Shown piece by piece: positions 7,241 through 51,070 of a DNA stretch of 64,000 bases (position 1 is its first letter; every line of letters starts with the position of its first letter). A model generated the notes under the pieces. That model saw only the letters and a list, made by a program, of their open reading frames with translations, was not told the origin of the DNA and did not search any database. The position numbers and the translations under genes were made by a program. The stretch is from Liolophura sinensis. Lineage: Eukaryota; Mollusca; Polyplacophora; Chitonida; Chitonidae. The stretch lies in NCBI RefSeq assembly GCF_032854445.1, contig NC_088301.1, positions 37,745,187 to 37,809,186 on the forward strand, given 5' to 3'.

Positions 7241-8530
7241 CGATGACCTTCAAAAAATACGTTAATGTTCCTGCTGACAAACCCAATGATATAATATTTA
7301 TCTGCAAGAAAATTACAGGTTCTTGTAGAAGAGCTTAATATCATTACACCAACTGTTGCAACATCAACGTATTCTAGAGGAACTTTAAAAAAACATCAGT
7401 CCTTTCTCAAAAAGAGGCGTGTTTCCGTACTTTCCCGCCACACCAATATACCACTACATTCCAAAAATGCATAAATCCCCATACAACACTTGCATTATTG
7501 CGAGATCGAAAAGCTGTACGACCAAACTTGAATCTACTCTCTTAACGAAGGCATTATAAAAAGTATATATTGTGCCTCCTTTTGGCTGATCTATACCTGT
7601 TCTCGTATGAACACGACCATATGCAGAAACTATTAAGGAGTAATCCGCGCCAGGCCCGATCTTTTTCATTCACTACAAGGTATATTGATGACCTGATCGC
7701 CTTAAACAGTCCATATATAGAAGAGGCTGTGAAAGATATATATCTTCGCTGGATTTAAAGGAAACCAAAGCCTCTCCAGATGGTACATCTTATCTGGACC
7801 TATATACGTACAAAGACCAAAACGGTTGCCTCGATCTTTCGCAGACTGTACGATAAGAGAGGTAGTTTCAGTTTTAACGTTGTAAATTATTCTTCCTTGG
7901 ATAGCAATATACCGAAGGGTCCTGCATATGGTGTATACATATCTCGCCTTGTAGCTTTTATTAGATCCTGCGTGTTGTGACGCGATTTCAATCAACGTCA
8001 CACGTTATTATTGCCAAAACTAGCTTGTCTAGGTTATTCTTAAGTTTTACAATGGACATAATTCTCCTGTAAGTACTTGTGGACAGAGCCTCCAGAATCT
8101 CTGGCACTCTGCTACATGTCTGAGTCTAATTCCACTTAACTCGGGGCTAGAGGGATGTATATTCATCGTGCTGAATTAGATGACCACGTTGGATATATGA
8201 ACAGTTGCAATCAAAGCACCAATGAGATACAGTCTTATAGTCTAGCATGGTACACGGTGTGAATATTAATTTCACTTTGTCGCCTAGAACATACAGTGCG
8301 TTTTTCGTACATTCTTGAAAACTGTTGAATTTCCTTCTCTTTGTATGATTCTGTCGTGCTTTCGTCCTTTATATACTTTCTTAGTTTTTTGGTAGTTTGT
8401 GTTAAACAGCATGTTGGAAATCTCCTTGCGAAAAATTGACGCGGAACTTTCTTATTGGTTTGCGGCAGGTATACGAATGTCTGTTTCGACGCATAGATTT
8501 ACTGAAACTGTTTAACAGAATTCTTTGGAT
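7240..8530 (+). mobile_element. Decayed YIDD-type retroelement, longest copy (copy B)
   Basis: Pieces of a reverse transcriptase are readable in order: N-V-P-A-D-K (near 7262), I-P-K-M-H-K-S-P-Y (near 7460), L-L-A-D-L-Y-L-F-S-Y-E (near 7577), the catalytic R-Y-I-D-D (7678-7692), S-Y-L-D-L-Y (near 7792) and A-Y-G-V-Y-I-S (7924-7944). The order fits one polymerase, but the centre between the second and third blocks is deleted and frames shift. Sequence after about 7980 is shared with copy A and is probably the end of the element. I think the family is Penelope-like or close to it; the clade is uncertain. It ends about 80 bases before the first coding exon of the aquaporin gene. Confidence 0.72.
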
Positions 8531-8612
8531 TGCTAAGTTACAACGTGGTGCAATGCCTTTGGAGAATGTTGCTTTTTGATGCAAGATTTTTTTATGTTAC
8601 AGGTGTCTGGAC

Positions 8613-11600
8613 ATGGCTGTCAAGTCCTTTTCAATAACTACTTCACGACTTCGGATTCGCAGCGCGTGGATACGTGACATTCTTTCCGAGATATTCGCCA
8701 CCTATGTATTTGTTGTAAGTTTTCTATACTAAGAATACTATTGGAATAATGGGGTCTGTATGACCATCTACAATCACCATACGAGATATTGTACGCTCCT
8801 GCGTGTTTTTTGCTCTGTATAAGAGAAGTGATGACATTCGTCTTAATATCTCATTCTATATACTTTCTTAGATATTTGGTGGTGTGTGATGGGTAACATA
8901 CAGGAATATGTTCTAGGTCTTCTTTAAAAATTCTGTCTGATTTGGTGATACATTTTTGTTTTGAAAAATCTTTGGCCATGCACGGTGTGACATTTCGCCA
9001 GTAATATAACGAGGTTCATTGAATCCATAGTGCAAAAAAGATGTATTGAATGCTGATATCACTCACACATTTGTTAAAAATGAAATGAAAAATTGTAAGT
9101 TGTCGTAATTTATCAATTTTGCGAAAGCGGAAGTCAATTTATTTAAATTTTTCTATTGCTTGTTTTCTCAACTTAACTCGCTTTTAATTTTGTCTTGATC
9201 GTTCCCCCTGAAATGCTTTGACCTGGGACATGCCGTTGGATGCTTTTTTTCTTTTTCCAGCTGTTGGCTATTGGTGTTGTGGCTCAGGAAGTTATGAACG
9301 GTGTAGGCCCTTCCACCGGACTGGTCATTAACTTATCTATCAGCCTCGCCCTCACGATGGCTATTTACGTCAGTGGCAACGCTTCCGGTAATCTCTCAGG
9401 GCATTATTAAGCAATTCACATCAAAAGAACAATATAGTCAAATGCGGAAAAATAATAAATGTGAAATTACATGTCCAACATGTATCTCAAATGTAACAGC
9501 AACGTAAAAAAGATAACTTTATCATAATTTCAATTGTAAATGAATTTTTACTGTTATTTTAGAATAGCCCAAATAAGCACTTCGTTTGCCGTATTGTCAT
9601 CAGTATTTACGAATAGAATGCTATAATTTGCTACATTTTCAACATTTACATGGACAGTTGGAATAAAATTCTAACTGAGGTAAAATGACAAGAGGCTGAA
9701 TTCATCCACCATTTTACTCTATGCTGTAAGTTTTTCTTATAGTCCCCATAAAATTTCAGAAACTTATACTGAACGTAAACGGTTGAGGGAGTATCTTGCG
9801 GAGGCTAGTTTTAAAACTTGTCACGTAGAGTGAAGCTATCACACCCTTATCCGAATCTAAGAAGAGCGGTGACTAATAAATTGCATTTATCACCGACGTA
9901 TTTTTAAACCACGTTGTTGAGCAGAGGAGGGAGAGAGTATAAGCTGCACGGGTGATCATGTTCCTACTATAAACACTGCCGTGACTGGTCTGAGTTTACT
10001 CTTCATGCATACTGTGTTTTGTACTTTAATAACTATGTCGATGATACATTTTGTCCTTTAGTAATCCTGACGATAAAATACTATCTAGACAAGTGTTATC
10101 TCTAATTATCTTATTTGTTGTATTTATTTATTTGATTGTTGTTTAACGCCGTACGAAGGAACTTTTCACTTATATGATGGTGATCAGTTTTATCAGTGGA
10201 AGGGAACTTCAACTGGGGTAAACCATGGATCTTTGGCGTATTACCGACGAACTTTCACACGTCTAGTGATGTACACCGTATTTGTAGAAGACAAGTTGCC
10301 TTCAGCGGGAATCCTGGGACGATTTAAACCCATACCCTGTGTATCCTGATGATTGAAAGGCAAGTCATTTGTTACATGTAACAAATAAATACATACAATG
10401 TATAATGGTATAACATAAAGGGACATCTCATAGTTTCCAGTTCCACCGAGAGAGCGCCTTGCTTCATTATAAATGTGTTCAGGAAACAAATTAAACAGTG
10501 GCTATCTTCGGTTTGTATCAGGTGGCTACGTGAACCCAGGAATCGCTTTGTCCATGTGCCTGACGGGTTACCTGAGGTGGAGGAAATTCCCAGTGTTTGT
10601 TCTCTGTTACTTCGTCGGGGCCTTCCTGGCATCTGCTACTGTGTATGCAGTCTACTATGGTAATATACATATAACTTTCATTCTTATTTAATCTTATACA
10701 CCTTGTATTCTACACAGTTAAGTCTGGATAACAGAAAAAGTACCGAAACCTAAGCGTCAAGTTTGACGTTCATACATCACTCCTAAGCCACGAAGAGGTG
10801 TCCTAAGTTGATAATCACTCTACAGCATGGAGGGCAATACAAGAGCTGCGACAACAGTGTAATATAGTTGGTAAATGGTCACCAATCATTTCCAAAACAA
10901 TTTACCTAAAACACCAGTTCACAACGCAATATGTAGGACATATGTAAATAAGGTCCGAGATTTTTAAAAAAAACTTGATTTAACTAAATATTTATCCAGA
11001 CTGCCTTGGGGAACAATTCTTCCTGTTTTTTTTTTAACAAATTGCAAATGTTGTGAATGTGAAAATGTTGGTAAACTTTGGTAAATACCCCTACAAGACA
11101 CCTTGGAGTGAAAGGTGTATATTTGATTTGATATATATTTTTAATCATGTTCATGTCTTCCAGAAGACATAAACATGCTTGACGGTGGGGAACGTCGTGT
11201 TTCTGGCGTGAATGGTACTGGGTTTGTGTTCACCAGTTATCCCACCAACCCCAACCTCTCCAAGGGAACAGCCTTTTTAGAAATAGTAAGTATTTTAGGT
11301 AGTAAACATATCGATAGCCCCAGTAAAAGAAATAAAAGTAACAGAGATCAAATTCAAGCGGCGCGTAATGAAATTTCTTCTGGAGAGTTCTACCAGGTCT
11401 TACAAACTTCCAAAGTTAATGAAATATAGGACTTCAAGAAACAGTGAACTTCAGATCTTTGATTTCTTCTTAAAGTTGACAGCGCATACATTGCTCGTGA
11501 TCTGCACCTTAGCTCTAGCGGACGAAAGAAATATGGCACCCTCTAAAGGAATGGTTCCTATCCCCATTGGACTTAGTGTGTTCACCATATGCACAGGCTT

Positions 11601-12452
11601 TTCTCACAACACTGGTTGTCCAATTAATGCTACCAAGGACCTGGCTCCTCGCTTCATGTTACTCGCTGCTGGATATGGTCCCGAGGCTTTGACGTGAGTT
11701 TGACACACATGACTTCAATTTCTGTTGCAAAAATATGTTACTCAGTGCTTAACTATGGAGCACTGGATAACTCATCGTTTGGTAATTGTTGTACTTTAGA
11801 TTGCAATGTTTGGAGTAAGGTACAAATAGTTGATCTTCTGTTAACCTTTTATTTTTAAGAATAGATATCTTTTTTTTATATAAGATTATAAAATTGTCCT
11901 TTAGTGCTTTCGAACTCTTGTGATTGGCTTGGCAAAGGCCTTAATTTGCGATCTCTGTATTTACTATAAATATTACTCCACAGATATATGGACTACTGGA
12001 TCTGGGTCCCTCCAGTGGCCAGCATATTTGGCTCTGTCCTGGGCACTTGGCTGTATCAGCTTATTATCGGACTACAGTGGGAACCTCTGAGAGAGTTGGC
12101 AACAAATAGGGACTTGACATTGGATGAAAAAATATTGATGCAACGTATGTATCTCGTAATTGTTCCTGTTTTAATTCAATATACACTTTACGATTGAAAA
12201 CAGGTAGTTACACTACACTGCTAAAAAGTTCTTAGATGTCTATGAATATGGAAAGAAGTCAGTCGTCGTGTCATATATGAGCTGTTTCTCTAACATTTCC
12301 TTCCTTATTCAGATGGATTTGTCCTGCGAATGCCACCATTCTACACGACTGCATCGAACAGGATTATGGAGAATAGGGGTGCTTTGTTCCACCGTATGAC
12401 CCTTGGACCAGACAGTCAAACACTGAACCACCAGCAATTTAATGTAATATAA
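8613..12452 (+). CDS. Aquaglyceroporin-like channel with altered pore motifs
   Basis: Seven coding exons join in frame to 335 aa: 8613-8714, 9261-9387, 10522-10659, 11164-11285, 11476-11693, 11984-12144, 12313-12452. All junctions are GT-AG. The product is a six-span membrane channel of the major intrinsic protein family. The segments S-W-x-Y-P-like loop (TSYPTNP), N-T-G-C-P-I then D-L-A-P-R, and the W-I-W-V-P-P final helix fit the aquaglyceroporin branch (water, glycerol, urea). The first half-helix motif is NPG (residues 81-83) instead of NPA. The second is NAT (214-216), followed by Lys217 where an arginine forms the selectivity filter in nearly all family members; the branch-typical Asp (218) is kept. 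An acceptor just before the start (AG at 8601-8602) suggests an upstream non-coding exon. Family is sure; substrate is not. Confidence 0.92.
9642..9735 (+). repeat. R1 short interspersed repeat, copy 2
   Basis: It lies in the second intron of the aquaporin gene. It has CATTTACATGGACAGTTGG, an AATAAAATTCTAACTGAGG block and TGACAAGAGGC in the same order as copy 1. It ends in TTTTACTCTATGCTGTA, also found at the end of copy 1. Confidence 0.6.
10118..10345 (+). repeat. SINE-like interspersed repeat in aquaporin intron
   Basis: It starts with TTTGATTGTTGTTTAACGCC and a TATGATGG block, then carries AAACCATGGATCTTTGGCG and GACGAACTTTC. The same later blocks recur at about 31650-31820 (AAACCAAGGACCTTTGGC, ACGAACTTCC). 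The T-rich, TTTAACGCC-bearing start resembles the tail of the tRNA-derived SINEs at 38 and 52-53 kb, so it may be a relative. No polymerase III boxes were identified. Confidence 0.5.
10812..10885 (-). repeat. R1 short interspersed repeat, partial copy 3
   Basis: In reverse orientation: CTACAGCATGGAGGGCAA, then GCGACAACAGTGTAATA and GGTAAATGGTCACC. These match the reverse of copy 1 in order, though diverged. It sits in the third aquaporin intron. Confidence 0.45.
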
Positions 12453-12696: not shown

Positions 12697-12702
12697 AATA
12701 AA
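12697..12702 (+). terminator. Candidate poly(A) signal of the aquaporin gene
   Basis: AATAAA about 245 bases after the stop codon, the first perfect hexamer seen downstream. It would end a short 3' UTR. No transcript evidence is available. Confidence 0.45.
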
Positions 12703-13384: not shown

Positions 13385-13585
13385 TCCTTGATTATATAGT
13401 AATATACAACGGGGCCTTATATAAGGCAAGCATGTGCATATCTCCTCTTGTAGCATTTGTTAGATCTTGTGTAAAATGTGATGATTTCAATAAGGTTCAT
13501 TTAAAAAAACTGGTGTGTTGGTGATACTCCATCAAACGCCTTCATTTTAAGTTTCCTAAATTCTACAGGTACTATAACATTGTGA

Positions 13586-13681
<96 letters not shown>

Positions 13682-13815
13682 GAGGGCTAGCGTTCCTGAC
13701 CTGGTATATAATCTGACAATTCATCATCATTAAAAACTGTTGACAGCTTCTCTTTCCACGAATTCGTCCTACTTTCTTACTTTATGTACTTTCATAGTCT
13801 TTCCGATTAACCCGG
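13385..13815 (+). mobile_element. Decayed YIDD-type retroelement, fragment (copy C)
   Basis: Bases 13435-13560 match copies A and B. Read in frame they give a block like S-P-L-V-A-F-V-R-S-C, the C-terminal part of the reverse transcriptase in copy B, followed by the AAACGCCTTC block of copy A. After an (AT)n interruption, 13735-13815 resumes with the CTACTTTCTTA and ACTTTCATAGTCTTT blocks that lie near 1150 and 8370. It is non-coding now. Confidence 0.6.
13590..13677. repeat. (AT)n microsatellite
   Basis: About 44 near-perfect AT units inside retroelement copy C. Array length may be unreliable in the assembly. Confidence 0.95.
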
Positions 13816-13818
13816 GTG

Positions 13819-13933
<115 letters not shown>

Positions 13934-13959
13934 TAAATATAATATGTGAGACTACATCA

Positions 13960-32490: not shown

Positions 32491-32935
32491 GTGGACCCAT
32501 ACGTCAAGACTTTAAAGAATGACGAAGTCGATATAAACTCTACGCATAAATTTCAGATGCATGACAAGAGACACAAAACTTGGGATAATATTGTATCATT
32601 TTTTAATAAGAGGAACAAGATAAGCACCATCTGATCTTGTAACAAATCTTGAATAACATTGCGTCACAGATATAGATCTGCGTTCATATTTACTTTACAT
32701 TTCTTTCTCTGGAATAATAGAATAATACATTCAATGCACAATGGTTTATGAGGCGTATCCGTAGTTGTATAATTAACAGTCAGGCATAAAAGCATAACGT
32801 AAGTATGATCCACATGCACAAATTATACAGATGTTCAAAAATAAAACAATTCGTGTATTTGCGGTATGGTGTGAAATCTCATGGGCGAAATAATTTACAG
32901 TTACACGTAAGTCTTGGATATAACATGTCATAATA

Positions 32936-34467
32936 TACTATCCAAAAAAAGAAACGCATAGGTGTTTTGTTTTATTTTAAAATGAAATAAATACATTTTG
33001 TCTTCATTTTATGAGCAAAATGTGTTTTAATATTGTTAATAGTCACAGTTAGCACACATTTTATTCCTCAAAACATTTCTTGGTTGAAAATGTTGAGTTT
33101 GGAGGCCGTTTTTGGAAGAAGTAAAAAATACAGCACCACACTGCATTACTCGTAGTCTTACACGCCGAACTTAAGCATGGAAAGCATGCAGTGTGTGACT
33201 ATAAAACCGCAACTTCGGGCCGGAAATCGGCGTCTTTCAAGTGGTGTTTTCAAGCTGATTCAACATGCCACGTCTTGACACTGTCACAAGAAATATTGCC
33301 ATTGGAAGACTTCAAGCTGGAGAGTCCCAATCGTCCATTTCTAGGCGTCTACACGTCAGCCAGCGCACGATTTCACGGCTTGCTGCCCGCTACAACAATA
33401 CTGTGACCACAAATGACCGTCGGCGTTCAGGTCGACCACGTGTCACTACAGCAGCCCAAGATCGCTACATAAGGGTCCTCCATTTGCGTGACCGTTGTGC
33501 TACAGCTAAAAGCACAGCAGCCAGCATACCGGGACTGAGGAGGATATCAGGTCAGACAGTGCGGAACAGGCTGAGGGAACATGGACTGAGAGCCAGGAGG
33601 CCCTATGTTGGGATCGTGCTGCGTCCTCACCATCGCGCCAATCGCCTCCGATGGTGTAACAACGTGACTGCATGGAATCTACGCAACTGGCGACGCATTT
33701 GGTTCAGTGATGAGTCCAGATTCCTACTGCAGAGACGTGATGGTAGAAACCTGGTTTACAGACGTGCTCACGAACGTTATGCCCCTAACTGCGTACGCCA
33801 AATGGACAGATTTGGTGGAGGGAGTGTGATGATGTGGGCAGCAATATCGTATACTGGTCGTACAAATCTTGTCCACGTTCAGGGAAATCTTACGGCCGTA
33901 CGCTACCGAGACACCATCCTGCAGCCACACCTCTTACCTGTCATTGACGTTCAGCGGGAATTGTTCCAGCAGGACAACGCCAGACCGCACACGGCACGTG
34001 TCACAAGGGACTTCCTCGCCGAAAACAATGTAAATGTGCTACCCTGGCCGTCCCGTTCCCCGGATCTTAACCCAATTGAGCATCTGTGGGATGAACTTGA
34101 TCGACGTCTACGCCAACGTCAACCTCAACCCCAAACGCTTCAAGAGCAAGTTGCATGTTTGCAGGAGGAGTGGCAGAACATTCCCCAGGCCTCTATCCAG
34201 CGTCTCATCCAGTTCATGACAAGGCGTGTCAGAACTGTTATTCGTGCCCGTGGTGGTCACAACAGATACTGACATTTCACTCAAGTGGGAGACTCATTGT
34301 GAGTGTCTTACCTCAAGTTGATGGCCTTGTTGTCTAGATATGGACCCTTCCTTAATCTGTGTAAAAAAATATGTGCAGAATAGCAATTCTTATTTAGTTA
34401 TGCATAATTGAAAAGACTGCATCACCTCCGCAAAAAACAGGTTATGCGTTTCTTTTTTTGGATAGTA
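32936..34467 (+). mobile_element. Complete Tc1-type transposon
   Basis: The left end TACTATCCAAAAAAAGAAAC (then GCATA) is repeated as its exact reverse complement at the right end over 25 bases. The flanks carry TA on both sides (32934-32935 and 34468-34469), the standard Tc1/mariner target duplication. Length is 1532 bp, with one open transposase gene in the middle. Nothing in the ends or the gene looks broken. Confidence 0.95.
33265..34272 (+). CDS. Tc1-type transposase, DD34E, intact
   Basis: 335 aa without interruption. Residues about 1-100 form the paired-like double helix-turn-helix that binds the terminal repeats (S-Q-S-S-I-S-R-R-L, then R-R-S-G-R-P-R, a GRPR-type linker). The catalytic core has the first Asp in W-F-S-D-E-S-R-F, the second in Q-Q-D-N-A-R-P-H, and the Glu in N-P-I-E-H-L-W-D with exactly 34 residues between the last two, the DD34E pattern. 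Its length fits the family (about 340 aa). It is GC-richer than its surroundings, as expected for a mobile gene. Its role is cut-and-paste movement of its own element in the nucleus. The first ATG is used and no intron is needed. Confidence 0.96.
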   Translation: MPRLDTVTRNIAIGRLQAGESQSSISRRLHVSQRTISRLAARYNNTVTTNDRRRSGRPRVTTAAQDRYIRVLHLRDRCATAKSTAASIPGLRRISGQTVRNRLREHGLRARRPYVGIVLRPHHRANRLRWCNNVTAWNLRNWRRIWFSDESRFLLQRRDGRNLVYRRAHERYAPNCVRQMDRFGGGSVMMWAAISYTGRTNLVHVQGNLTAVRYRDTILQPHLLPVIDVQRELFQQDNARPHTARVTRDFLAENNVNVLPWPSRSPDLNPIEHLWDELDRRLRQRQPQPQTLQEQVACLQEEWQNIPQASIQRLIQFMTRRVRTVIRARGGHNRY

Positions 34468-34933
34468 TACTTTTATCTCATTAAGAACTTTTAAACCATC
34501 ACACAGTTGAACTAATGATATATATATGGAATCCCAAACTGCACTTGAAAATTATCTTCTTCAGCAGTAATAGACTATTTCCAAAGGCATTTTGAAAAGG
34601 TCTCTTTAGTAGAAAATGTAAATATCTGAACACTTCTAAACTTTATATATTATGACACAAGTGATAAACATTAAGACCAGCCACTATTAAACCATAAAAT
34701 GAGTTCTATAATGTGTTTACTTTAAATGCAGCAATTTTTTTCCTTAACCATGAAAATGGAAAGGATATGGCACTTTTGTGCTTCTTGCATATAATTGCTT
34801 CCATGAGTTCAAATTAACATTTAGTGTTGTAAAACACATGACTTTAACATGTGCAAGTGGCGACTTGGGGATAATGTAAAATAGGATCATCAAATGTAGT
34901 CCTGGTCTGTGTTCACAGTTGGGATATTGGTAG

Positions 34934-37900: not shown

Positions 37901-39051
37901 TTATCAACTGCCACAGCCTGGCTGTCAACAAAAAACAAACTACATGCATGTCACTACATATTATGATTATGTTTATGATTCATACTGCAATTTTGCATAT
38001 TTATTTGGTTCGTGTTTTACGCCAGTCTCATGAATACTGCACTCATATGGCCACAGCCAGCATTATGGTGAGAGGAAACCATGCAGGGCCCTGAGGGAAT
38101 CCCGCACCATCACCATCAGGTTGGTTTCTAGCAGATTTTCGCACGTATGATGGCAGAAGAAGACAGCATGATCTGGAATTAAACTCAAAGTGACTGCATT
38201 GGTGAGAGGCTACTGGGTCATTGTGCAGTGCTGGCATGCTAACCATTCAGCCACAGGGACCCCGATTAATACTTCAAAGCAGCAGAACTAATGTTCTGTG
38301 GCCTGTTAAACACAGTGTCTGTGATCACAGGCTAATTAGTTCATTGCAAATTCTACCATGATCACATTGGTCCTCATAGTAGCCACACTTCAGTCTACAT
38401 AGGAGTGTATATATACTGAGAACCACTGCTAAATTTGCTGTCTGGATCTTTCACCTAGAAAGAAATGAACTCCTTGAAAATGTATATCTGTTTCTGAAAA
38501 TTGATCCACAATATCATATCAAGTTTTAATTTTAATTGTACTTAATGTTAATTTTGGTGTATGTGGTATTGAACCATGCGAATTTTGATTTATCTGTCTC
38601 GTTAAAATGTTTGAAAACATCATCACAGTTTAATTTAATTAGACTTATAGTTAAGTTTTAAAAGATGTATTAGACCATGTGATATCTTTGATGTACATGT
38701 ATTTGTTTTATTTGAGTTTTATAATCTGACAAAGAATTTTGCACAAACGTGACAGCATTAAGGTTTTGAATGGAGCACACTGGTGAGTCTTCACATGCAA
38801 GTTATAGTCTATCACATTCGTCTATCATGCGATTTTAAGAAGAATAATTCTCCATTTCTGTTTGTGTCAGCAAGTGTGCAGTACAGATACTACTAGGGAG
38901 TTTAGCAGTTCACATGTGGTTGATCTAAGTGTACACGCAGTCACTAAAATAAAATGACACACCTGTAACGTATAAGATTATTTTACCTATACGGTCCAAT
39001 GGCTTTCGGGGCCTTTGGTGTGCTGATTATACGACGAATTACTTGTGACAT
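34934..39051 (-). CDS. RIDA: RidA / UK114 reactive intermediate imine deaminase
   Basis: Six exons on the minus strand, in order: 39051-38987, 37921-37819, 37160-37106, 36528-36460, 35445-35390, 34990-34934, giving 134 aa (human protein 137). The enzyme hydrolyses reactive 2-aminoacrylate and related imines produced by PLP enzymes and acts as a trimer in cytosol or mitochondria. Seen motifs: I-S-T-P-K-A-P-K-A-I-G-P-Y at the N-terminus, L-Y-V-S-G-Q-L-G, then P-A-R-A-A-Y-Q-V with the active-site Arg106, and V-E-I-E-A at the C-terminus, together the RidA signature. All introns are GT-AG. The frame stays open upstream to an ATG at 39213, which would add 54 residues. I chose the inner ATG because it matches the family start. 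It is divergent from the membrane-protein gene at 39675. Confidence 0.95.
35800..35920. repeat. R2 repeat, third partial copy
   Basis: CTCCTAACATTTACCTTAAC followed by ATTGATTCT and a TACACAAGACA block matches the middle of the R2 pair at 30070-30360. It lies in an intron of RIDA. Confidence 0.45.
38000..38270 (-). repeat. tRNA-derived SINE
   Basis: On the minus strand it starts with a tRNA-like head (CCCTGTGGCTGAATGGTTAG, a box A-like block). It continues through GAGTTTAATTCC (box B-like) and the body GGTTTCCTCTCACCATAATG, and ends in a T/A-rich tail with GGCGTAAAACACG. The same body is found at 15 kb and 52-53 kb. It sits in the first RIDA intron. Confidence 0.75.
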
Positions 39052-39674
39052 GTTTACAGAACTTGTACAACGTGCTGTAAAAAATAACTTCACGCAGCAG
39101 TGGGAACTCAACAGCTGTAGCCTACAGTTATGACAGTAGGATGAGGAAGGTTTATGACCAGTAGACCTCCACAAGAGACCGGAAATTCGCAAGAAGGACC
39201 GTACAGTGTGCACGTAAAATACAAGACGGGAAAATATGAAGGATTTTTCATACCAGTGTTTACAACATATAAAGCAATCCTGAGTTTATATTAATGTTAT
39301 ATGTGATTGTGTTCTTCAGTATTTACATGTATGTACTTGCCAGCTTATGCCATGCCACGTGAAACAAGGGTAAACACGGGATGACGTCATTGGTTTCATG
39401 AAGTTTACTACGTGTTAAGGTGCCTTTAACTAAGTGCACTTTATATCTCTACAACATGGGTGTTGCCCTGGTAGTTAAGGGTCTACTTAGCTAAGTGAGC
39501 TTCATGAAACCGGCCACTAGGTGTAGCGTTGTGGTGCAGCTACGCTGTGGTGTTGATTGCATGACCGCTGGACGTCATTTTGAAAGAGGTGAAACGGCTG
39601 ACGTCACAATCACGTCTCGTCGGCTAAAAGTTTAAAAGGTAGGCAATAGTCGCTTTACCGTTTACGGAGGACCA
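39052..39674. promoter_or_regulatory. Shared divergent promoter region with two CRE palindromes
   Basis: It separates the starts of RIDA (minus) and the membrane-protein gene (plus). Perfect TGACGTCA sites, the CREB/ATF binding consensus, occur at 39382-39389 and 39599-39606, and a GACGTCAT half-copy at 39571. No TATA box is evident. The part from 39052 to 39213 may be coding if RIDA starts at its upstream ATG. Divergent arrangement and site identity are seen; co-regulation is inferred. Confidence 0.55.
39392..39511. mobile_element. 120-bp inverted-repeat element in the divergent promoter
   Basis: GGTTTCATGAAGTTTAC at the left is matched by the reverse complement of GTGAGCTTCATGAAACC at the right. 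Inner parts also pair (TTAACTAAG with CTTAGCTAAG-type sequence). It is MITE-like. It lies between the two CRE sites. Confidence 0.65.
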
Positions 39675-44624: not shown

Positions 44625-47600
44625 ATGACAATGAGCATGCCACTGAAGAAACCAGGAAGGAAAAGGAAGCTTGATGAAGATGAGTCTGTCAATGTCCTCA
44701 TCAAGGCACCTTCAGGTAAACATGGGATTGGTGGAACCTGTGGTTTTTCAAAATACTAGTATTCTTTAAACACCAGATTTCAGAATGAAGATGTGAATAA
44801 AACATATCTGATGATTAGAAAAATTATGTTTGTAAACACGTTGCAGTTGTGTTGTAAACTTATATTTAAGTGATATTATTTTTAGTAAAGCATTTCTTCT
44901 TGACTGGTGAGGTCAAGGGTATCAAAGCCAGCTGCTTCTTTAGGAGGTTCAGATCCCTGGTGATAGTAAGTGGTTTGCCATAAAGCCTGACAGCTGTCAG
45001 CATAATAAAATGTGTAAAATATTCTAGAGCATGGCATAAAACATAAGACATGATTTAAGGGTAGAGAATAATTGCCCACTAGTCCCGATAAAATAACAGG
45101 AACATTCTACTGCATATGTGATAACGGCATCTAGTATTCATAGGTTATTAAACCCAATATGAGCTGATGTTGATGGGTTGTGTATTTGCATGCCACTGCA
45201 GAATAGAATCTATTCTATCTATTTAGTCATTCAGTAATATATCTAGTCATTCAATAATGTGTTTTATCATACACCAAACCTCAATCAATTACCTAGGGAG
45301 TAAAGTTTAGTTACTGAAAATGAAAATTTTACAAAAAAATTCATGATGGTAAAACTGATAAAGATAGAACTTTTTTATGAATGGCTCAAGAATGTATACA
45401 GAGAGAAAAGACAAGGTGCCATGACATAAGGATAATGTCACACTATAAATGTCAACATGTAATATTAAAGTGGCAGGATTGTCACAATGTTAAAAGATAT
45501 ATGTAGGCAAACATGGATTGTTTGGTAATAAATTGCTTTATGTATAAACCAAGGCGTTCAATTTTGCAGAAATCAATCTTTTGGATTTTGCTGAAAATCG
45601 AGCCAAAGAAATAAGAGACTTGTCACAATTGTGTGAGTCACTTGGTGGTGCAAAGAGGGTTTTCCAGACTCTGCCATGGCACATGAGGCGGCGAGCAATG
45701 AGTCACAATGTGAAAAGATTACCACGAAGGCTGCAGGAGCAAGCTGCTAAGGAAGTGAGTTTTATGATACGATTAAATAAAGTAGTAGACTATTGCAATT
45801 AACAGGTTTTTTCTTTTTTTTGCACCAGAATCCATGTTACGGTAAAAGTTTTCAGCAGTTTATGTATTGTTTGGCGTCTCTTTGGTAGACGTGTTCCCAA
45901 ATTCAAGTTTTATGAAAAGGTCATGTTATGCCCAGCAAAGAATCGCCTGATACAGGGAAAGTGTGTGTTGGTGCAGAACATGTCCATGTATCACTTTCTG
46001 GTTCTTAACAGAATGTTGCATGCATATTGGATCATTTGCATCAACCATATCTGTAGTCAAGTTCATGTTTTAACAGATTTGCAGTAAGTTGGATGTGACA
46101 CAGAAAGGATGAGATTACTAAGCCAGTGATCACTTTTTTTTTTCTTAACTGTTGAGAAAATTTTTTGTTTCCATAATACAGTATGAGTCGCTAGAGCAGA
46201 AAAAGTCGATATCCAAGAGACCAAGCCGAAGACATCGACGAAGGCCGAAGAATCTGCTGACAGAATATGCTCGCAGACAACGCAAACATGTCTGGCTAGA
46301 AACCCACATCTGGCATGCAAAGCGGTTCAAGATGGTAGATCTCTGGGGTTACAGAATCCCTCTACATCCTTGTGAGAAAAGTTTGCGTGCATCCTATAGA
46401 GCAATTGCCAGGCATTGCTTGCTTCAGGTATATATATTGAATGTACATATTAGATCTTGTTTGCCTGATAGCTTGTCTCTACTACTTTAGTGCAGCAGCT
46501 GAATTTTTAGTGCCCAAGGTAATTAAAAGTTTATGGTCAGACCTGTTATGGTATAGAGGAATGTGGGTGATGGTATGTATGTTTGTATGTTGACCTAGCT
46601 CTGGGGTTGGCGGTGTTTCAAACTTATCTTCCACATTAAGCGCTCTGAATCATTACATTCACTTACCTGGAACTTGATCCTGTTGCCTGCACTGTTCTCA
46701 AAGTGTTGCAATGAAACAGATCTCCTGCTGTCTTAAATTGTGAATTCATAACACCTCACTATCAGGAATAAAGTTCTTAACATTACAGTTAACGCAAATG
46801 TAACAGAGGCATCCACTTGGGACGAAATCATAACTTCACAAACCATCATTTATGAATCATGTAACCACGTTGCCTGGGTGGACTTCTCTGCTCTGTCCAG
46901 AATTAAGATCATCTCTTTTGCACAATAGTTGCTTATAATTCCTTCTGTTCAAATGTTATTAGAACACAAATTAGAAGTTAGAACTCCCAAACAAGTTGTC
47001 TATTGCCCTTTTAGTAGTGTAATCATTTCACAAGTTTGTCTTTTTCCGAGAGATGTTGAGTAGGGCCTACCCTATTGAAAATGGCAGTTGGTGAAATTTG
47101 ACTTCCTGTTGACATGTTAATTTTTGTTAACTGTGAAGTTATAGCATAATTTTGCTATATTATATGCTGTTGGCCAAGGCTTCCATTCCTCTGATGGTAA
47201 TTGCGTCAAATCTATTATCCAAATTCTATTATCTATTGGCCGACAGCATACAATATTGCAGAATTCTAGGTTCAAAAATGAATTGTGATGGAGTTTGATA
47301 TCATTTACAGTCAGGTATGAACCTGAATGCTACTTAATGAACATCATCTTAGACCAATACCTCCCTGCTATTTTGTGTTATATGTTTTTATATTTATTAA
47401 TATATAACTTTCCAAATATGTTTTTCAGGATGTGTCATTTTTGTGTTGCATCGAAGTAAAAGGATCTGAAGAGCTCATTCTGTACGGACTAAGTCATGTG
47501 ACAAGTCCAAAAACGGGTAGGTGTAACAACAACTCTAGATTTCCCTGACCTATATAGCTCAGAAAGGGGAGGGGGGGATTTGCCTGAAAAAAAGAAAAGT

Positions 47601-50600
47601 GTTATTACTTTTTGACCATTTGGCTAAGGAGTGTTGTTTTAGTGGTCAGTGTCTTTCCATCCATGCATATCTACATTTATGTAAGTTATCCTCAATTTCC
47701 TTTTCAGTTCTCTTCTCTCCCAATGAATGCTTGTAGCCAGGCTTACCAAACTTACATGTACAGTAGTCTGTGCACTGTAATCATAGAACTTTGTTAATGA
47801 ACAAGATATGGCATGAAATCATTATGAATCATTTGTTTACAAATGAACAAACTTTTGGTTAGGCAAACATGAATTGGACATTTTGTTCTTCTTCTGTTGT
47901 AGGGAAAACATTTGCTGCGCATGCCTGTCTCAGTGGGTCAAGAGAAGGCCATACAATAATGTATTCATACCAGAAGTATCCATATGATGCAATTGGACCT
48001 GTGCAGTTCATCTGGAAACCAAAGGAACAATCAAGCAACTGTGGGCCAGGGGAGATGGAGAGGCGATTATGGATTTGGTGCCACCCACTGTGTTATAAGC
48101 AGGTGTGGCAAGAGCTTTGTTGCACCTTTTCAATGCCTGAAGCAGATGAAATTCAGATGCAAACTTCAGAACAAGAAATGGATAACAGTATGAGAGCTGT
48201 ATTAAAAAACCTCAACGTCACAAATGGCTCAGTAACTTTGTCCTCATTAAAAGACACTCTTGTGCGCTTCAGACTATGGGGTCCTCTGTCACAGTCAGTA
48301 TTGTCAGACTTGTTTAAGGAGCCAGTTGTTAAGACAGACCCAAACTGTTCAGAATATTGGTGGAAGAAGTACTATGAGGAACATCAAGTAGAAGTTCACC
48401 AGCATCAATGGCGCACATGGAATTCACTAAAAATGTGCCAGTCTCCCTCTGAGGTACCTCCCCACTGTGTAGTTGGGCTGACAGTAAGAGACCCCAGAAT
48501 TTTTTTGCCACCCAAGAAAACCAAAGCAACCCAAGAAACGGATGATGAAAGACTGAAAGATCCTTTTAACGAGAATAAGGGTAGGTTGATTTGTCATGTA
48601 ACAGTGGATAAATTGTTATTAATCAGCAAGCAAGATGTTGTGATACCATCCTGTATCTTCATGCAAAAAAAATGGTTTTCTAAATTAAATTTTATAGTCA
48701 TGGTTTTAGTGTGAAGTCAGTCATTAAACTATATTATTCAGTTTCAAGGATTTCAAGAAATTAAAAATACTTTGCATAGAATTTAACAAAATAAAGACGA
48801 TATGCAACAGATTGTTCAGAAAAAATGTGTACACTTACCAAATCAAACTTCCTTTATAAAATATTTTCCCAATGTAACCTGACCCTAATAGGCCAGTAGG
48901 AATTTCTGCTTGTTTCATTCTCTTTTTTTTTTTTTTTTTTTTGTTTATATTTTTTTATTCTGGCTCAAGGCAAAGTAGGGATTTTAGTAGAATTTAACTC
49001 TGAGGTGAAAATAAAATTTCTCCAAAAACTTGGATAAGTTTTGGGATATTGAGTAAGGTTATGCCCAACAAACAAATACTTCATGATGGCCAAGGGGCCC
49101 ATTCTTTCTCCCATTCCACTTAAAATTGTCTGACAAAGTGATGCTAGTTTTACAGTTGTCAATCTTCCATGCAGTTAGATCTTTGGTACACCTCAAGTCT
49201 TCATTTACTCATGCTGTGATCCTTTATAAGTGAATATAAAATACATGCATTTACGATAAACAGGCAGCATTGAAGCTTCGGTTCTCCCTCCATGTAGTGC
49301 TCTTTCACCTCTGTGGGATGAAGACATCCGGAAATCTACTGGTCAGAAGTTGACAGAGCATGAGGTTAATAAGAGGAGGTCTGATCACCCCATAAATGGT
49401 GAGTGGAAAAGTACATCAATTTTGACTGCATTAGCATGGATGGAGTGCTTTGTGATTAGACTTGGCTGTGAGTTGTTCTTATCTTCTGTTGACTAACGTA
49501 CAGCCATGTTTTTTCCCACGCTCTTGTTTGTGGGGCCTTGGTCTTACCTTAAGGTCAGTGATGGATGAGTGGCAATTTACGAAGTGTACAGTTCATTGAA
49601 AAACCATTCTTCTACCAATATGGTGTGCAAATATGTATACCATGGGAATTTGCCAAGGGATGGTGGTTTACTCAACCCATAAAACTGACTGCCGTGGTTT
49701 AAGTGAAGAATTGTTTAGCATGGAGTTGGGCAGCAATCAAATAAACACAGCCAAGTTTGATTCAAGATCTGTTAAATTTGCTGTGGCTTTACGCAGGCTC
49801 TGCCAACCTTCGTCTGGGCATACACATGTAATTGCCTTTAGACTGTTGATATGTAGATGGAAACGAAGTGTTTCCTCATATGTGGAAGTGGAATCTTCTG
49901 CAAGTAGGTTCCCTCTTTTGTTTGAAGTTCTGATAATGCTATGCACATTTGACCTCTTTGTCAGTCAAACTTTTTTTATTATTTGTTTTATTATTTATCA
50001 CATTCATATTTCCTTGTTTGACAGGAAATTTGTTGCAGTTGGGAGATGAAGAATCGCGGATTCCAGTAATTATAATTCAGCGCCCTGGAGAGCAAGGGAG
50101 ACAACCGAGTCAGATGAACAAAGGAGCTCTGCAAAACCAAGGTAGTGTTTGTGTGGGATTCGGAAATGGATGGGACATGATCCTTCCTTCTGGTTGGGGC
50201 ATGGCATTCTGGATAGCCCTTGTTTATCGTGGAGCTCGTGTTGGAGGATGCAGAGAGGCAGAAAGTGTCCAGAAAGAAGTTGGAGAGCTGTATTTTCCAT
50301 CAGACTTTCCAGACACCTCATCATGTAAGCAAGAGGATGAGTCTGTGAAGAAGGAGCTTACAGACAAGCATGGCCGCTACCCTCCAGCAAAACGACCAAA
50401 TTTTGTGAAGTTTGGTGTTGTTGAGCCTTTCACATGCCCTTGGCAAAGACTTGTAGACGAGTGGGCTGAAGGTTGTACAGAATCAGAATCGTCTGATAAT
50501 GCTAATGAAGGATCAGCTGAAGGTTCCAAGACAGTGTTTTATGTTCTTCGTGATAAATCCATGTTAAAACAGCTAATTTCCCATATTTGGAGTAGGTCAC

Positions 50601-51070
50601 TAGATGTAAATTGCTTGCCAGAGGATATGTTGAAAGTGCTGAGGAATGCTGTTGTAGCTGTTAATGTAATGATGCACAAAAGAGGTACTCCAACAAAATT
50701 TGCTGCAATCTGTTTGCCTAATGAAGATGATTTGAAAAGTCTTCAAGCAGATCCCAGATATGGTGGTCCAAAGGAGCCATTGCACAAAGATCCTCTTACA
50801 GATAGAAAGTCCAAGAAAAAGGGCAAACACAGCAAGATTACAAAGTCGGAAATTTGTCCTAATCTTGGATTTCCAGGAACTCTGAAAGAGTCTTCTAGTA
50901 GGTTAATAATAGGCTTTCTAACCAAAGGTGGATTTTCACTATGTCATGGGTCTGGCTCGGGAGTGGGATTTTGTTCAGGCCTTGGCCTTCTTCACATCAA
51001 ACCTCCTTTTCTGTGTCTGATCAGAGCCCATAATTCTTTACAGTATTGGTTTGCAAATATTGAGACATGA
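44625..51070 (+). CDS. POP1: POP1, large protein subunit of RNase P and RNase MRP
   Basis: Seven exons: 44625-44715, 45570-45754, 46182-46427, 47429-47516, 47903-48580, 49264-49398, 50025-51070. They join in frame to 822 aa (human 1024). POP1 is the scaffold that holds the RNA and other proteins of the nuclear ribonucleases which trim pre-tRNA 5' ends and process pre-rRNA. The basic start P-G-R-K-R-K-L fits a nuclear signal. The N-terminal POP1 domain is marked by [16 protein letters not shown] (residues about 62-77) and [12 protein letters not shown]. The middle has G-P-V-Q-F-I-W-K and L-W-I-W-C-H-P. The POPLD domain in the last exon has [10 protein letters not shown] and Y-R-G-A-R-V-G-G, and [10 protein letters not shown] follows. 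The last residues L-Q-Y-W-F-A-N-I match the family end. The chosen ATG follows an acceptor; an in-frame ATG at 44574 is possible. Confidence 0.95.

Follow-up and report, generated by a model that had tools for sequence, protein, structure and literature searches.

The gene described here lies in a 64 kb stretch of Liolophura sinensis DNA (the window) and encodes an aquaglyceroporin (Glp) in which both pore boxes and the selectivity-filter arginine are altered. With a probability of roughly 0.6, judged from sequence comparison, it represents a distinct, long-established Glp subfamily, the pore of which would have been rewritten before a gene duplication and held since, and which would conduct small uncharged solutes. 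A paralogue on contig C10 carries nearly the same pore motifs, therefore the odd pore is older than the duplication. The protein would have the fold of an ordinary six-helix aquaporin.

The window gene, on contig C7, occupies 8613–12452 on the plus strand, with seven exons that join in frame and encode 335 aa and a stop. The six introns all have GT-AG borders and lie in phases 0, 1, 1, 0, 2, and 1. An earlier interpretation made from the letters of the window (the sequence-only reading) had described exon frames and splice sites intact over seven exons, which is borne out; it had the right gene, but its coordinates, 10522..11693, span exons 3 to 5 only. Coding exon 1 (8613..8714) contains the Met start, the beginning of TM1, and Glu26, and is matched by exon 1 of the C10 paralogue. 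Coding exon 2 (9261..9387) covers TM1-TM2, including Ile61 at the H2 position of the filter. Loop B with the sequence SGGYVNPGI (box 1, N81-P82-G83) and TM3 are encoded by coding exon 3 (10522..10659), and an extended, Glp-like loop C and Glu162 by coding exon 4 (11164..11285). Coding exon 5 (11476..11693) holds TM4-TM5, Cys202, Cys211, box 2 (N214-A215-T216), Lys217, and Asp218. TM6 is in coding exon 6 (11984..12144) and the C-terminal tail and stop are in coding exon 7 (12313..12452), all of these being on the plus strand. Exons 2, 3, and 5, at 127, 138, and 218 nt respectively, are equal in length in the window gene, the C10 gene, and the canonical Glp genes on contigs C1 and C8. Exon 4 is 122 nt in the window gene, 9 nt shorter in C10 (113 nt), and 119 nt in C1 and C8. 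An alternative start of exon 4 is possible 3 bases downstream, with an AG also at 11166, and an AG at 8602 makes a further upstream 5' exon possible. A candidate AATAAA-type poly(A) signal (12697..12702, plus strand), a consensus match only, starts 245 bases past the stop. GC content is 0.48 in the coding sequence versus 0.32–0.35 in the introns. There is no second copy of the gene within the 64 kb window, the sole match beyond its own exons having an E value of 9.7.

Other elements are present around the gene. Long (TA)n and (GA)n microsatellites are found directly downstream at 13589–13935, and decayed fragments similar to Penelope-like reverse transcriptase ends, identified by eye, flank the gene at 7295–8000 and 13400–13560; the piece at 7546–7755 has no Pfam match. 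Two diverged direct repeats, 1048–1108 with 8234–8294 (77%) and 858–907 with 8037–8086 (84%), have copies about 7.18 kb apart and are probably parts of one repeat family. A Tc1-like transposon, probably young, is present at 32934–34469, bounded by 27-nt perfect inverted repeats (32934–32960 and 34443–34469) and containing a 337-codon frame (33259–34269, plus strand) with DDE_3 and HTH_Tnp_Tc3_2 above the Pfam cut-off. Exons of POP1, an RNase P/MRP subunit, are located at 46149–51067 on the plus strand, where Pfam places POP1_N in 46149–46487 and POPLD and POP1_C within 49937–51067. A minus-strand frame at 38983–39285, ending VIRRIISTPKAPKAIGPYR, has no Pfam match; it resembles the first exon of RIDA, and RIDA beside POP1 would agree with the human gene order.

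The filter Arg is highly conserved across aquaporins. The sequence-only reading had reported N-P-G at box 1, N-A-T at box 2, and Lys at the position of this Arg, and all three are present in the joined translation. The residues aligned with Lys217 are Arg217 in human AQP10 and Arg218 in AQP3. The change is nonetheless understated by that reading, as H2, H5, LE1, and the loop-B His are altered as well. The filter is Ile61 (H2), Cys202 (H5), Cys211 (LE1), and Lys217 (LE2), with all four residues differing from those of human AQP10 and AQP3. Human AQP10 and AQP3 are 37% and 33% identical to the window protein, over 257 aligned positions each, and share with it the fold family, the extended loop C, and the Asp after the filter residue. 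At H5, LE2, and the loop-B His site they carry Gly, Arg, and His, where the window protein has Cys, Lys, and Tyr (Tyr79), and the window protein is set apart from them also by the Ile at H2 and the Cys at LE1. Both pore Asn, Asp218, Arg222, and Glu26 are retained, and Glu162 occupies the site of an Asp in four canonical Glps. In AQP10 the loop-B His, H80, is described as a pH sensor in an extract of PMC6232157.

Matches to solved structures place the protein among the Glps, with AQP10 first (4e-53), accompanied by AQP3 and AQP7. Weaker matches are to GlpF (2e-21) and to classical aquaporins, the best of which is an Aquaporin 1 (8e-11), with AQP2 at 2e-8. The MIP domain of Pfam (PF00230) is found at 105 bits in the window protein, against a cut-off of 25, and at 101 bits in the C10 copy. 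In a nine-row tree the grouping of both copies with the Glps over the classical aquaporins has 100/100 support, the classical aquaporins of the same genome being three partial rows. Each of these three is a single open frame running past the 3' end of an exon into an intron, so that their residues past about column 200 are meaningless. The order among the Glps is left unsettled by the tree. The Asp after the filter position and the basic residue four on are D218 and R222 in the window copy, with equivalents in C10; these are Froger positions P2 and P3. Since the boxes are NPG and NAT, Glp membership rests on descent rather than on the box motif. Two NPA boxes are typical of Glps without being universal, AQP7 and SjAQP departing from them, and the filter Arg, here Lys217, is likewise typical and is departed from in TbAQP2. 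In AQP7, Pro is replaced by Ala in box 1 and Ala by Ser in box 2, according to an extract of PMC10010469. The unorthodox AQP11/12 are marked by a Cys at the ninth position after box 2 (extracts of PMC8700629 and PMC11316224); this site, residue 225, is occupied by Leu in the window protein and by Met in its C10 counterpart.

The C10 paralogue was found by searching the genome (609 Mb, 632 contigs) for the MIP family, which gave 30 matches, and scanning these places with the window protein. It is on the minus strand and has the same intron phases as the window gene. Exons 1 to 3 are located at 27769719–27769624, 27766709–27766583, and 27763462–27763325, exons 4 and 5 at 27761532–27761420 and 27760681–27760464, and exon 6 runs from 27758948 down. 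No convincing counterpart of exon 7 was found in the surrounding 50 kb (best E value 1.5). The translation contains SGAFVNPGIALSMC and ICTGFSKNTACPINSTKDFAPR, giving N-P-G at box 1 and N-S-T-K at box 2, with a V/C/C/K filter and Phe at the position of the loop-B His, where the window copy has Tyr. Identical in both copies are N-P-G, both Asn, T216, K217, C202, C211, and Asp218. When the whole genome was searched with the window protein, at least 24 matches resulted: 7 are window exons, 6 belong to C10, 5 to the Glps on C1 and C8, and 6 lie elsewhere. There is no third copy of the NPG/N-[A/S]-T-K type among these matches. The canonical Glps of the same genome, at about 4.74 Mb on C1 (L016) and about 4.32 Mb on C8 (L017), have NPS rather than NPA at box 1 and NPA-R at box 2. 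Their filters are G/G/Y/R (C1) and W/G/Y/R (C8), and they share 34% and 35% identity with the window gene, respectively. The C1 Glp is also without the loop-B His, having Val, and exon 1 of the C8 Glp was not found.

Selection was assessed on the window/C10 pair over 273 codons, with the tail after residue 278 excluded. Residues are identical at 187 of the 273 codons and 66 of the 95 fourfold sites differ. The pair has a dN of 0.209 and a pS of 0.797, which is past the Jukes-Cantor limit; because the synonymous sites are saturated, a Nei-Gojobori dN/dS is not computable and codon maximum likelihood was used. The two-sequence estimate of omega is 0.029, which is to be read as roughly 0.01–0.05 only, given the saturated synonymous sites; the comparison is of two subfamily sequences from one genome. 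Values of 0.01 and 0.05 fit about equally (2dlnL 2.1 and 1.3), and omega of 0.1 (2dlnL 9.8) and 1.0 (2dlnL 224.6) are rejected. The box 1 codons, AAC CCA GGA in the window gene and AAC CCG GGC in C10, differ in third positions only, as do the codons for T-K (ACC AAG and ACG AAA). With the residues shared, the fourfold sites diverged, and omega at 0.029, the odd pore is maintained by purifying selection. The statement of the sequence-only reading that this does not look like random decay is strongly supported, the motifs being common to an old paralogue and the pair being under strong purifying selection.

There are 69 columns that are invariant in C1, C8, AQP10, and AQP3, and 38 of these are unchanged in both copies. 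Both copies have the same new residue in 16 of the 69, including G202C, A216T, and R217K, and have changed differently in 7, including P215A/S. Four are altered in the window copy only and four in C10 only. The tree joins the two copies at 100/100, with a stem of 0.92 changes per column and tips of 0.15 and 0.22. When the columns of loops B and E are removed, support is 100/100, the stem is 0.94, and the tips are 0.19 and 0.23. The long stem and short tips are read as a likely burst of change followed by constraint.

Among bacterial Glp loci, 79 of 80 have NPA and NPAR, and Lys is found in none; the remaining row, which ends after 33 residues, has no readable motif. The bacterial set is the best 80 of at least 590 confirmed matches (at least 593 pattern matches), and 76 of the 80 rows carry the pattern, which allowed R/K, P/A/S, and A/T. 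This baseline leans towards canonical sequences because its rows were chosen by how closely they resemble the canonical C1 Glp. Two pattern scans for relatives on viral contigs gave 3 and 53 matches, none of which was confirmed. No Glp with a filter Lys and both boxes altered was found in the extracts of the literature searched, specialist mollusc papers aside, and absence of such a Glp from print is not claimed. N-P-G boxes occur in SjAQP of Schistosoma japonicum, in Paramecium AQP1, and, at box 1, in an annelid aquaporin (annelid: extract of PMC8700629). SjAQP, compared here by box 1 alone, has N-P-G at box 1 like the window protein and passes water, glycerol, and urea in oocytes (extract of PMC5062077), therefore N-P-G at box 1 is by itself compatible with normal function. 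Paramecium AQP1, with NPA-NPG boxes, is permeable to water, glycerol, and urea according to an extract of PMC13332306. In the literature searched, the Glp that comes closest in having changes at both boxes and at the filter Arg is Trypanosoma brucei AQP2, which has NSA/NPS boxes and Leu264 at the filter Arg, alterations that are stable within the brucei group (extracts of PMC8311954 and PMC7473772). The filter charge is gone in TbAQP2 and retained, as Lys, in the window protein, and we infer that the two pores are of independent origin.

A small-solute, cation-excluding pore with altered selectivity appears likeliest because the protein retains the Asn pair, the positive charge, and the Asp typical of Glps. 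The two Asn and the charge of Lys217 would still keep cations out, and the [Ile/Val]-Cys-Cys-Lys filter and the lost box 2 Pro would alter which solutes pass and at what rate; altered selectivity of the window protein is plausible on these residues. Cys211 occupies the position of the mercury-sensitive Cys189 of AQP1, so that it may be accessible to thiol reagents and block by these is predicted.

It is possible, if unlikely, that the protein is maintained and yet non-conducting or nearly closed, with a scaffold, adhesion, or regulatory role for which the fold is kept and transport lost. The filter, both boxes, and the loop-B His are all altered, as such a protein might show. The box 2 Pro is Ala in the window copy and Ser in C10, so this site is not fixed, and its loss, together with the change of the loop-B His to Tyr/Phe, could impair the pore. 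Purifying selection is equally expected for a non-conducting protein. However, conservation between the copies is above the overall 187/273 in several pore segments, namely the loop B half-helix (18/21), TM2 (17/22), TM5 (16/19), and the loop E half-helix (15/20), compared with 18/34 in loop C; TM4 (13/22) and TM6 (16/24) are no better than overall. With these segments conserved, and with T216, C202, C211, the Asn pair, Lys217, and Asp218 common to both copies, a solute-passing pore is more likely than a closed scaffold.

An ion-permeable aquaporin, most plausibly for anions, in which Lys217 and the changed NPA region would admit charged solutes, is distinctly improbable. AQP6 provides a natural anion-permeable aquaporin (extract of PMC4150397), and TbAQP2, with its boxes and filter altered, passes a dicationic drug (extract of PMC7473772). 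In TbAQP2, however, the Arg is replaced by a neutral Leu and restoration of the Arg stops pentamidine (extract of PMC7473772), whereas the window protein keeps a positive charge. Cation exclusion has been linked to the pore Asn residues and to the filter charge (extracts of PMC10010469 and PMC4150397), and the Asn is retained in both boxes of both copies. Since the pore segments are conserved and the Asn pair, the Lys charge, and the Asp are common to both copies, cation conduction is disfavoured, and the ion selectivity suggested by the sequence-only reading is weakly supported.

That reading had also mentioned mollusc-specific glyceroporin groups, probably the malacoglyceroporins, and this assignment, which the name and the impression of a molluscan host invite, is very improbable. 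Malacoglyceroporins are described with Phe at the first filter site and the second-site His replaced (extract of PMC8925068). In the Glp-grade window protein the first site is Ile61, and in C10 it is Val, so that by this description the pair is set apart and the name is unfitting. Another study found no support for a malacoglyceroporin clade, and freshwater gastropod sequences so named fall in a tree of classical lophotrochoaquaporins (PMC6796509). The altered core motifs might suggest a pseudogene or a fault in the assembly, but the chance of either is negligible. Both are ruled out by the C10 paralogue and by the test for selection, the reading frame and splice sites being intact and the motifs being near-identical in an independent gene on another contig with saturated synonymous sites and omega of 0.029. 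In a simple simulation of neutral change, run at six divergences and with the indel rate assumed, the joint probability of an intact gene with all four key residues changed was at most 2.7e-7.

Returning to the maintained solute pore, a further and speculative suggestion, of low probability, is that the pair represents an animal Glp subfamily undescribed in the literature searched, in which the cysteines of the [Ile/Val]-Cys-Cys-Lys filter would form a redox- or metal-sensitive gate, the permeant would be unusual, and Lys217 would act as a cation guard. The long stem and short tips would fit a gene that changed rapidly as it took on a new function and was constrained afterwards. The maintained duplicate pair, with its Lys, altered boxes, and two filter Cys, offers a natural experiment on which pore residues a channel needs to pass solutes and to keep cations out, and the N-[A/S]-T-K-D signature is usable to screen other animal genomes.
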